Assembly (NCBI RefSeq): GCF_921293095.1
Contig: NC_060253.1
Location: 81,567,992-81,631,991 of the forward strand
Direction of reading: 5' to 3'
Length of the DNA stretch: 64,000 bases
From: Ischnura elegans
Lineage: Eukaryota > Arthropoda > Insecta > Odonata > Coenagrionidae
How positions within the stretch are numbered: position 1 is the first letter of the stretch; the number at the start of each line of letters is the position of its first letter. Of the stretch, positions 1,180-31,700 are shown in pieces. The translations under genes were made by a program, and so were the position numbers. The notes beneath the pieces are model-generated. The model did not search any database, was not told the origin of the DNA, and saw only the letters and a program-made list of their open reading frames with translations.

Positions 1180-4100
1180 GTAAGTTTTATTATGGTAGCA
1201 TTGCCCTAAGTGCGGGCTCGTTGCCTGGATTTTCATCAGCATGGTCTATCATGTCAGTATTTTAATAAATTATTCTGTACTTAAATGAAAATTTATGCTG
1301 TTACTCTATCTTTTGCTGTTGATTTGTTGGCCATGGGTAAGTAATAACAGCAAGTAGCTGAGAATTTGGCCATCTTCACTAGCTCTCTGCTAATTTTGCA
1401 CCAGAAGGGAAGCTAGTGGAATGGGTGAGTTATCATTGGAATAGAGAGCAATGTCAAATGGACTCAATGCCAGTTAAGTGTTGTCACATTAGTAGTACCT
1501 GTTATTTATATATAGTCTTAGTCAATTAAAACACCACACTCACCAGGCGAGCTTCTGTACAACTTGTGTACAAAATTTTAAAACTATCTTCCTTGGGTGT
1601 TTGACAAACATGAGCTAGGGAAAGAATTATACCGTGGCTAGAATGGAAGGAATGATGATGTCTTTATGTTCAAAGTAAGAACAGGGAATATCCCCATCCT
1701 TACTGTTGATTTTTTCAGGGTTGGTTTTTTTTGGAAGGTGTAGGTTTACAATTCAGGGTTTAGAAGAGATGCTATGATTTGTATCCCCTATTAAATCACA
1801 AAGAGGCTTTATATTTTGATTTCAACCCTCATGGAGACAAAAGACATTCCTGTGTGTCAGTGGTGTAGGTCCAGGGGGTCCGGACCCCCCCCCCCCCCCC
1901 CCCAACTCCCCAAAAAATTTAAGCATAATTACAACTTTGCTTTAGAAAATATGACAAAACATTAAAAAATCATGGATTTACAAAAGATTTCTTTAACAAA
2001 TGAAGTTTTTTCATTGTGAAAACTGTTAAAATTAGTTTAAAACCCTCTATTTAGTACATGCCCTGTTTTTAAAAATTCCCCCCCCCTGATTTTGGACTTC
2101 CCCAAATGAAGACGGCATACGGTTCAAATAGTTATGCTAAAGATACCGTCTTGAAATTCCTGACTACCCCACTGCTGTGCGTACTGAGGTTTAAGCACAG
2201 AATGTGCTACATGCATAATTCATTTCTATGTTCAAGTTCTTTCGCACTCTTAAGGTGCAGAATTCACTTCTTTCATAATCGATCATCTTGAACCTTCTGA
2301 ATCTGGGGTTAGTGATTTTAGTTTAGGGTTGGTGGTCCCTACAATCCATTATTAATTTCAAGTATATCATATTAATTTCAAGCTTTTTTTTATCAATATT
2401 TCAATTTTTTTAAGAATCTGTGGTGGCTGAGTAAAGTTCTTGCCTGATGTCCCATTCCTCCTATATCCCCTCAGGTAAAGCCCTAAAATGTGTTTGCGGC
2501 GTATTGAAGAGAAACAAATAATACATATATTGAACAAAAACAAGTATATTGGCTAACATTGTGATCAAGAATGTTTGAATTAGGAAAAACAAATTTCTTT
2601 CATCAAAATTGGTCAAAAATGCGGGAAATACATAAATTTTGCAAGAAAATCTTGGGTGGGCAGTAGCCATTGATAATAATTTGACCCTACCGATTTAAAT
2701 TTACCACGGTCTCTAATGTAGTAAAGGGAAGGCAGAAAGGGAAATAAATTGCAGCTCTTACATAGTCAACTACATTCTAATACTTATCCAATGCAATATG
2801 AAGAGGAAGCTGCAATACACCACCTGCTCCCTGTCCACCCAGGTGGACTGCCTTTCCACTTTGGTATCAATAATTGGAAATACTTTCCCAACCTCCAACC
2901 AAATTGTATTAGGATTTCTCAATGTTCAGAAAATTGTCTAATGAATTGAAAGCTGACTAGTAGTGTTTGACTACTTTTCTTGCACCTTTTGCAGACCAGA
3001 AATTGCTGCCAGTGTTCAAAAACTACCAAATGGGTGGGCCATCCTGCAGACTCTATGTGAAGAACATCTCCAGGCAGGTGGAGCCAAAGGATCTGCATTA
3101 CATTTTCTCCTGCTTCTTGGATGAAAAGGATGAGGAGCAAATGAAAATGTAAGTTTGTTCATCATCTCTATTGTTGGGCATTTTTAAAGACTGTCCCTGT
3201 TCACATGTTCACTGCTTCAAGAGGGAGAATATTGTGAACACATCAATCCCATTTACAGGTTGTAGCCTTCTCTGGTTCTCTTGATGCAGCGCTATAATGT
3301 ATCTTTGGTGGGATTCCTAAGTGAGAATTATTGCCACCCAGATATATTAAGGCATAAGTGGACATTCTTATTGCATCATGATATATGCCAGTGGCATAAC
3401 TATGGGGGGATGTCGGGATAGATCCCCCCACAAAGCCTCAAAGAATTTAAAAAATTATTTAAAACTATTGTCCTAGTTTTGGCTTATAATAACTGCATCT
3501 GCTTAAAATTAAATTTAAAGTGCCAAAATGATGTAAAATGTTGGATGAAAAGTTCTCGGGCTTTCCACCGGGCATTAAAATCCTTCTCCGCCGACGTTTC
3601 GATGTCCATCAGGGGCATCATCCTCAGGGCAACTGAGTGTCGAGACAAAAATTTGAACTTCATTTATAGGGTTAAGTTCGAATTTTTGTCTCGACACTCA
3701 GTTGCCCTGAGGATGATGCCCCTGATGGACATCGAAACGTCGGCGGAGAAGGATTTTATTACCCGGTGGAAAGCCCGAGAACTTTTCATCCAACACCTAC
3801 GCCGGGAAAACACCCGATTATATTTTATGTAAAATGTATTTCCAGGCATGTTATTTTTCAAAACTTTTCCAAGCGTGGGGTGTGACCCCTGTGGGCAGGA
3901 GGGGGTGGTTACACTCCCAGGCTCCTCCATCCCCCCCAAACTTCCTAGATACACCACTGATATATGCTGGCTCACCCAGATTCTCCAGTTTTTTTGTCAA
4001 GGGCAAAACAAAAACCAATACTTCAATGGACCCTTCCCTCACACACAAAATCACCAAGTGCTCTCTTTCTATTCCTAGGTTTGACGTCCGCCTGATGCAG

Positions 4101-28700: not shown

Positions 28701-31700
28701 GCCAAATTGGGTTTGTATGATTTAAATTCAAACACGTCTTGAATTGCTTTTCACCCTTTTGGTCTTTCCCCCAACTAACTCATTTAACTCAACCTAAGGG
28801 TGGATAGGTATGTATCACTCACCAGAATTCAGTTCATTTTCTCTAGCATAGTGCAGCCCAATTCATTTGAATAGTGAACCTTTCAGTCAGTAGCCTCAAG
28901 GCCACCATGCTTCTCCCCTCTTATTTGTTAGGATCAAAGTTAGAATCTAATTTTATTGGCTATTATAGATAAGGAAAAGTCCAAGAATAAGTTCTCATTT
29001 GTAGCCCATTTCAATTTCTTTTTGATCAAGGATTCCCTTTGATTTCTTCCCTTCCCCAGAAAACACTATATACATGAGACATCCCTGTGAGACTTAAAAC
29101 ACATTCAGGCAAATGAAAATTAATGGTTTCTATACCCTTTCTAGAAATATTGTAACCAGTTATACATCTAATATTACCCCTGAAATTAATCAAACTAGAA
29201 AAATTGGCTAAATTTGCAGTAACACGTACGGGGCTGCCCACGGAGCATCCTCCTTGGCGTGGCAGGCAACAGGGCTTGCGGGACGTGTGTAGTAGTCATT
29301 CTCCTTGTCCAGCTCCTCCTGACCTAAGCTCAGGTTCATTTTCTTCTCCTCAAAGTCAATGTCCATTTCCTTGCGCTTGGTCGCCTTCCTCATCATCTGG
29401 GAAAAAGGCAACAGCTTGCTCAACCATACATCAAACATTGAGCACCCACAATGTCCTGGATGACCAATGCCTTAAACATGGCCTCCTTCCTTCTATCCAA
29501 AATGCTTTTGCAGGCAGAATTTTATTTTTGATAATGCAAACAATCTAAGTTTGTTAGTGACCACGGCCAAATATAATAAATATAAAACGAGCGTGCTGCG
29601 CCCGCTCCCAGAGGGCTTCCCCCACTCTTTCAATGCAGGTCCACAGAGGGATAGGCACGTTTCTAATTTTAAATTGTAGAAAAAAAGGCGGAGTCTTATG
29701 TACAAATTTAATTGGAATGTTCATGTACAAATTGAGGTCAGAGGACCTCTTTAAACACAACATTGGGAGTATTTACACTATCCTATGTTAAACGCACATG
29801 TTGACTCATACTTACGTATCAACAGGAGACTTGAATGTGGAATCAGCCGCATTTTGATAAAAGTTATATAAAGAATGCGAGATATTGTTGCAAATGAACA
29901 AATGTATCAGTTTGTGTGCCGTTAATGTCAGGAATATTGACCAGTTTTTTTTTTTATTATTTAAAAACCAATTTTAGGAAACAATAGCAATATTTAGGAA
30001 GTAAGATATGCCGTCGCATGTTCTCTGATAAATTCTGTGCATTTTGGTACCTCATTTGTAGAGTTTGGTTGCGTATAAGTTGAGAAAAAGGTATCTATAC
30101 AGTAAAAATAATATACAAGATTTTTCTTCCAAAATACTTTATCACCATTCGAGAATCACTAAGTATGGTTTTTGCTAATGGGTGAAAGACATATGAAAAC
30201 AATATACTTCGAAAATATTTAAGATTCATACATTGTTTACTTCAAAAATGATCCTGACCCTTTCGTCAGCATTAAGGAAAAAACTTAGCTAATATTAGAA
30301 TAAGAGGTAATGAAACTAACTAATACGCTTTCCGCACAATGAGGCCTTAATGTGTTGAGTTTTTAATTCCCATTGACACTTTTTCCTCAGACTTTGGAAA
30401 GAATGAGCAAGTAATAACATATTTCCCACCCTTTGGAAGCCATCTTGCTCCTAAATTACTCAATTACGATGAAAATGAAACAATGCATTGAAATTTGAAG
30501 TAAATATATCTCATGGTAAAATAGTTCTTGGAGTATAGGTCAATATTATGACCACCCATTAGCAAAAACCATACTAAAGTGATTCTCGAAAGGTGATATA
30601 CATAAAGGTGAAAGTATTTTGGAAGAAAAATTTTATTTTTATAATATTTGGCTGTGGTCACTAACAAACTTACATTGTTTGCATTATCAAAAATAAAATT
30701 CTATCTGCAAATATATAATTGACCTATACTCAGAGAACTATTTTACCATGAATTAAACGAGGTAAAGAACTTGATGGTTTGAGGCATAACTTTGTGAAAG
30801 TGATTCATTATGAAAAATAAAAAAGAAGAAACTATGTGCTTTCAAATGAAATATTTATTCACACATTGACACAACCATGGTTTCATCGTAAGATGTCATC
30901 ATCAGGTGAACTCTAAAGAGGTCCATTACATCCATTTATACCAGGCTTGGAGGGAGGGAGGAAGGTAACTAGGTTGAACCGACTGGTCAACAGAGATGAG
31001 GGACGGGGAAAGAACTCGGTCATACCTTGGTCTTGACTTGGAATGGAATGCAATGGAAGCCTGTGATGAACCTGTAGAGTTTACCTGATGATGACGTCTT
31101 ACGTTGAAACCATGGTCATGTAAATGTGAGAATAAATATTTCACGTGAAAGCACCAAGTTTCTTCTTTTTTATTTTTCATAATGAATCACTTTCACAAAG
31201 TTATGCCTCAAACCATCAATTTCTTTGAATTTGAAAAAAAAAATCCATGATGAAAGCTTTTAAAAATGTTTTATCAGTTTAAATTAATTACAATATATTA
31301 TTACTGTCTTCAAATTAGGAATGAAAAATATTTTTCTGTTGCGTTATTAACTGTGGTTATATTTACTATTTTAATTTTTTTTCTTCTTATCTTGACCTCG
31401 CTTATTCATGGTAAAATAGTTCTCCGAGTATAGGTCAATTATATATTTGCAGACAGAATTTTATTTTATTTTTCACAAATTCAAAGAATTTTAATTATTT
31501 ACTGATGGCACTACTCACCTCCTTCGCATGGCGCAGTCCCCGCTCCCATGCACTTTCAAACACAGGAGCCACCTCTTCTTTTCGTGGAAATGAGGCCACT
31601 GGCTGGAAATCAAGGAGAGTGAGGAAGGAATTCAAAGCATGAAATACATACATGGCAGGTTCAGAAGCTACACAGTCTATGCCGACATACTGATTGACAA

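Follow-up and report, generated by a model that had tools for sequence, protein, structure and literature searches.

An insertion of 285 bp in the Ischnura elegans DNA analysed here (a stretch of 64,000 nucleotides, hereafter the window) is most probably the non-coding footprint of a GIY-YIG Penelope element, left by paired cDNA priming from two start sites and joining of the cDNA 3' ends. Elements of this kind, and ribozyme motifs like its own, are already known, and the insert in the RNPC3 gene is, by itself, an ordinary by-product of Penelope insertion. Its interest lies in the insertion record kept by its sister copies. How Penelope-like elements insert is unsettled, and a young family, whose tail matches 149 places in one genome, offers natural footprints that bear on the start sites of the reverse transcriptase, the joining step, the 5' end of the template and the role of the element's hammerhead. 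What is drawn from these footprints below are predictions and not proof.

The insertion occupies positions 3542-3826 and consists of two inverted arms. It is bordered by 11-bp direct repeats (ATGTAAAATGT) at 3531-3541 and 3827-3837, and lies inside a repeat at 3389-3959 that we take to be a hAT-type MITE from its CAGTGG ends and the 8-bp repeat ATATATGC at 3381-3388 and 3960-3967. When the two MITE halves were joined without the insert and used as a query (best 40 of 3751 first-look candidates scored), other genomic copies matched across the junction uninterrupted, as in C6:69033489-69033760, where 272 bases matched query 1-272 with 82% identity. The two halves present in the window overlapped by 11 bases (query 143-153) in their matches to the same insert-free query. 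Because the uninterrupted MITE copies are empty sites, both the insertion and its 11-bp duplication are established. The original prediction had placed the insertion at 3541-3826 with a 10-bp duplication; its end and the inverted layout stand, while the 11-bp repeat moves the start to 3542. The host gene had been named as RNPC3, and the exons flanking the intron, once joined, indeed matched RNA-binding protein 40 (3egn, E 4.2e-33), pointing to an intronic insertion in this splicing-factor gene.

The inverted repeat (3539-3660 and 3674-3795) has arms of 122 nt that are 98% complementary and spaced by 13 nt. Both arms were mapped on the 3' end of a related genomic copy, L048, with position 0 as the last tail base. 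The right arm (3674-3826, + strand) runs from -150 to 0 and is the only one to carry the 33-nt tail (3793-3825). The left arm (3542-3670, - strand) is tail-less and runs from the -33 site to -160; its alignment reaches -30 through a chance match with the target duplication, the true end being the -33 site. It keeps a TATAAA box, found in reverse complement within 3661-3670, and the GTT at the arm junction (3671-3673) is unmatched by L048. Two inverted arms had been predicted and were found, but they are not equal, as the left one is without the 33 nt at 3793-3825. The right arm also holds 38 codons from an ATG (MMPLMDIETSAEKDF..., 3713-3826, + strand) that overlap the hammerhead and that, by analogy with Anolis Poseidon, would be the start of the Penelope ORF. 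The ORF start in the arms, the tail on one arm, the 11-bp duplication and the MITE host were absent from the original prediction.

Each arm carries a candidate hammerhead. The right-arm motif lies at 3702-3746 (core 3707-3743, + strand), with a predicted cut after C3741, and the left-arm core, located by pattern match and a custom covariance model, lies at 3591-3627 on the - strand. CTGAGGA, stem II and GAAACGTC are present in both. Besides six standard pairs, stem II contains a C.A mismatch; inspection by eye gives stem I five pairs (three G-C and two G.U), and a single pyrimidine, U3714, separates CUGAGGA from stem II. The conserved CUGAGGA and GAAA, the mismatched stem II and the five-pair stem I had all been described correctly. 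A stem III had also been read in the palindromic ACGU after GAAA; the palindrome is there, but in the absence of a loop its pairing would require two RNA molecules. The motif has the type I hammerhead features of a CUGANGA / GAAA core, stems I and II and an NUH cut triplet.

An Rfam hammerhead match on the arms had been named as a supporting outcome and failed to appear, either at the gathering score over the whole window or at E<=10 over 360 bp. The loose Rfam matches in the 360 bp were to microRNA, snoRNA and sRNA models; none reached the gathering score, and they were discarded as such models fit any long hairpin. In the 1.72-Gb genome, the pattern CTGANGA-N(10-26)-GAAACGTYGG gave 16,111 matches, compared to 10 for the reversed control. 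From the matches listed for this pattern, 46 distinct 37-nt motifs were picked by reading; they are not a sample of all matches and none is from the window's own family. Together with the window motif they formed the 47 rows of a stem II covariation test with 500 shuffles. Standard pairs made up 83.0% of the stem II cells, against 62.8% in the shuffles (reached by 0/500) and 18.5-45.0% in slid controls, and 43 cells were changed on both sides, against 13.9 in the shuffles (again reached by 0/500). A weaker measure, the number of pairs with any two-sided change, was matched by 30/500 shuffles, and the middle pair of stem II (column 13-23) was unpaired in 21 of the 47 rows. A custom covariance model built from the 46 other motifs matched both window arms at 41.1 bits (E 8.2e-9), its only other match in the window at E<=1 having an E of 0.18; the base-pair-free version of the same alignment gave E 3.5e-5. 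A covariance-model match on both arms was obtained with this model and not with those of Rfam. These results show that stem II covaries among the genome relatives of the motif.

The whole insert was predicted to fold into a single long hairpin (-240.7 kcal/mol) with both motifs inside, in agreement with the hairpin originally proposed. In the lowest-energy fold of one arm, stem II was kept and the complete hammerhead was not. Fold stability gave z -0.45 for the 53-nt arm and z 0.00 for the 131-nt arm, and folding energy was rejected on these values as stand-alone support for a ribozyme. As the insert forms one long hairpin and the arm folds without a whole hammerhead, we take the locus to be probably inactive.

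A genome search with the insertion returned at least 104 matching pieces (best 40 of 378 candidates scored). The tail junction had 149 genome matches at up to 2 mismatches and the hammerhead stretch 139 at up to 3, with 0 for the reversed control in both cases. In L048, a 492-aa frame that stops 23 nt before the same arm matched the reverse transcriptase RVT_1 (E 2e-12), and there were weak reverse transcriptase matches to telomerase reverse transcriptase (E 0.009). L048 also has a GIY-YIG match (PF01541, E 0.0016) whose 19.1 bits fall short of the Pfam threshold (22.6), with position and motif correct. The hammerhead was found just downstream of the reverse transcriptase in 10/10 loci fetched by a match to that enzyme, two of these being one duplicated element and seven belonging to one sister family (~70% protein identity). 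Most reverse transcriptase-bearing copies seen in that sister family stop without a tail; L056 continues into the tail. The best candidates included no complete copy of the window's family whose ORF is intact, and a genome search with the 38 arm codons (best 150 of 9468 candidates scored) gave only short open frames of at most 161 aa. The original prediction had proposed a search for copies with a reverse transcriptase and named a DNA transposase in related copies as the contrary outcome; no transposase was seen in the relatives of the insertion. The inverted pLTRs, the tail at one end and the short target duplication give the Penelope layout that had been proposed, as in the published inverted arms with 9-10 bp duplications (PMC3846280). 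Judged from the reverse transcriptase, the probable GIY-YIG motif and this layout, the insertion appears to be a fragment of a Penelope-type retrotransposon, and the earlier reading largely holds in substance.

To build a census of footprints, 82 loci were mapped: the window copy, 39 other places from the search, 10 further loci and 32 tail-bearing loci. L070, whose stretch had no tail, was dropped, as were seven duplicates (L030, of L029; L072, L085, L093, L094, L095 and L096, of L071). The remaining 74 loci comprised 62 two-armed copies and 12 called single-armed, among which L089 has a short left remnant by eye and the stretch of L102 is too short to show one. Tails at both ends were seen in 0/62 distinct two-armed copies. 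The second arm ended at -27 to -42 in 59/62, and at -32 to -34 in 40/62; the exceptions, L026 (-54), L038 (-134) and L075 (-45), have no second tail. The insertion search favours window-like copies and the 32 loci were chosen for having a tail. The fairer evidence is the lack of any two-tailed copy among the 62 together with L061-L068, eight hammerhead pairs that were fetched as having no listed tail and that in 8/8 cases have exactly one.

Target duplications were present in 35/39 two-armed copies, compared to 9/600 mismatched pairs; the four with no clear duplication were L015, L017, L026 and L038. Two single-armed copies, L039 and L042, have clear duplications, and in the sequence retrieved for the long single-armed L024, L028 and L029/L030 both a second arm and a duplication are lacking. 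These long copies, like the four two-armed ones above, count against the paired-priming model favored below. Arm lengths vary widely (those of L032 reach -592 and -180). Such a count of tails per copy was not found among the open-licence papers returned by literature searches, and the footprint statistics (0/62, 59/62 and the 41/136 arm starts described below) are possibly new. As a separate observation, the same mini-insertion (-81/-50) with the same flanks occurs in seven places (L071, L072, L085, L093, L094, L095 and L096), and from these shared flanks it seems to have multiplied within a larger repeat.

At the other end of the arms, 41/136 start at -131 to -128, that is 27-30 nt below the TATAAA at -158, and five single-armed copies (L039, L041-L044) share this start. 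From the TATA spacing, we read the cluster as a transcription start. On this reading, many mini-insertions would represent the whole of the 5'-most 97 or 130 nt of the RNA, with priming at the set of start sites that comes first along it. The arms of the window copy reach -160 and -150 and would therefore need a longer template RNA. In L073, L081 and L083, one arm each starts with the base that immediately follows the predicted ribozyme cut (binomial p 0.009; the test used 36 ends listed by hand and was made once these ends had been noticed), and another search gave two more arms with this start. The 36 ends come from L071-L102 with duplicates counted once, leaving out ends at -123 or further upstream, the displaced piece of L080 and the remnant of L089. 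As a signal, arm starts at the cut are weak, since they make up only 3/136 arms. In Anolis, ribozyme mutants are reported to leave in vitro insertion unaffected (PMC11167929). The ends of L040, L046 and L047 near the ribozyme cut were dropped, because these arms resume to the -130 region after an internal deletion. The deletions, in the left arms, remove parts of the hammerhead region (~-77 to -123) with the arm end still near -130, and are perhaps due to the reverse transcriptase jumping across the fold.

The model that we favor with good confidence accounts for the window copy as follows. The element protein would open the MITE site with an 11-bp stagger, and cDNA would be primed on both sides of the break from the same kind of RNA. 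The first cDNA would start at the tail end (position 0) and the second at an internal site ~33 nt upstream. Both would stop early, and their 3' ends would be joined head to head, giving inverted arms of which one is tailed and one tail-less, each retaining a hammerhead that overlaps the ORF start. The two fixed 3' ends and the preferred 5' end are observed; that a dimeric protein started the two cDNAs separately, and that these were then joined, is what we infer. A stricter form, in which the asymmetry is obligatory, is put forward tentatively, and we lean against it: the subunits of the dimer would prime at the tail end and at the internal site on opposite strands, the cDNA 3' ends would be joined with stem II as the joining hairpin, and ribozyme-cut RNA would serve as an occasional template. 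If this were true, the mechanism itself would dictate a single tail for each insertion and leave no option. Neighbouring motifs elsewhere in the genome are mostly arranged in the same way: within 1.5 kb, among the matches listed, 16 pairs were -/+ compared to 1 +/-, and a second motif class gave 11 compared to 0 (counts from 100 listed matches of the 16,111-match pattern and 68 chromosome-1 matches of the second pattern). The head-to-head order of motifs hence looks general.

A single self-primed cDNA could also produce inverted arms, and we regard this as unlikely. Here the cDNA would start at the tail, its 3' end would snap back (for example through CATC/GATG of stem II), and it would copy itself to about -33, making a second initiation unnecessary. 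For the Penelope elements of Adineta, the palindromes at inverted junctions have led to a proposal of self-priming, with an antisense template (PMC3846280). In the present family, a junction at -110/-95 is centred on stem II, where the CATC and GATG ends can pair; it was found in 5 fetched copies whose flanks differ and in 7/12 loci of an exact whole-genome pattern, those five included. Such palindromic junctions suit one-cDNA self-priming and count against paired priming. Copying back, however, should repeat the 3' end of the first cDNA and give two tails or none, when two-tailed copies were 0/62, and many arm pairs are very unequal, as in L032. Self-priming thus covers the palindromic centres and not the single tail, and both processes may occur. 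Divergence between arms (0.0253 within copies compared to 0.0264 between copies; permutation p 0.001, a tiny effect) does not decide between one RNA and two.

The palindromic shape, the fixed outer ends and the direct repeats would also be expected of a fold-back or MITE-type DNA transposon that has terminal inverted repeats and has captured hammerheads. This reading is already contradicted and retains next to no credence: the ends differ by 33 nt instead of forming equal terminal repeats, single-armed copies exist, two of them with clear duplications, arm lengths are widely variable, and the relatives carry a reverse transcriptase where a transposase would be expected. The likeness to a hammerhead could, on the other hand, reflect conserved coding sequence at the ORF start with no ribozyme history. 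The motif does overlap the ATG and first codons, Rfam gave no match, the fold of a single 53-nt arm has no unusual stability, and both the unpaired column 13-23 and the two-sided-pair count reached by 30/500 shuffles fit this explanation. It is nevertheless very improbable in view of the stem II pairing and its two-sided changes, which exceed those of the shuffles and slid controls, and of the 16,111 pattern matches compared to 10 for the reversed pattern. Paired priming of a hammerhead-bearing Penelope RNA is the reading that we retain.

In layout, the design appears to be the same as that of Poseidon of Anolis carolinensis (PAc), a member of the Penelope/Poseidon clade reported to combine a reverse transcriptase with GIY-YIG (PMC11167929); the window's family has the reverse transcriptase and a probable GIY-YIG motif. 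According to that report, the protein cuts and extends both strands in vitro and starts at two RNA sites bounding the tail; these two internal starts were obtained in vitro, and the later steps of insertion are said to await validation (PMC11167929). Counted from the second ATG in the window, C3741 is the 26th base, and counted from the first, the 29th; the PAc design is alike. The tail ends at the 113th base and measures 33 nt, whereas PAc reverse transcription has its ending sites 111-118 bp within the ORF and the PAc tail measures 30-40 bp (PMC11167929). PAc copies are described in tandem repeats, whereas those found here are mostly inverted pairs with no complete ORF (PMC11167929). Penelope elements of Adineta vaga (Pen2a and others) are similar in their inverted pLTRs, 9-10 bp duplications and junction palindromes, and a 31-bp tail is optionally found on one of the inverted pLTRs (PMC3846280). 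They differ in having whole ORFs between the pLTRs, the window insert being arms only, and the word hammerhead is absent from the main text of that paper (PMC3846280). The minimal hammerheads described in Penelope-like elements are alike in being minimal motifs with no usual helix III within a pLTR; unlike them, the window motif has no Rfam match and is a candidate ribozyme (PMC6155905). Retrozymes, as described, are also small non-autonomous retroelements with hammerheads (PMC4918200, PMC7229834). In the window, however, the motifs are inverted, with one sense motif per transcript, so that a unit circle between two cuts would be impossible, and the retrozyme reading, with its hammerheads in direct repeats, was rejected.

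Two further observations concern hammerhead-like motifs at large. A second inverted pair in the window (30764-31226), with arms of 155 nt and 92% complementarity, has on each strand a core resembling that of a hammerhead (CTGATGA...GAAACCATGG), and its stem III palindrome, ACCATGGT, is longer; the corresponding CTGATGA-type pattern had 1,189 genome matches compared to 0 for the reversed control. The 16,111 matches of the strict pattern include a great variety of stem II sequences and point to a very large stock of Penelope-type hammerhead motifs in one animal genome.
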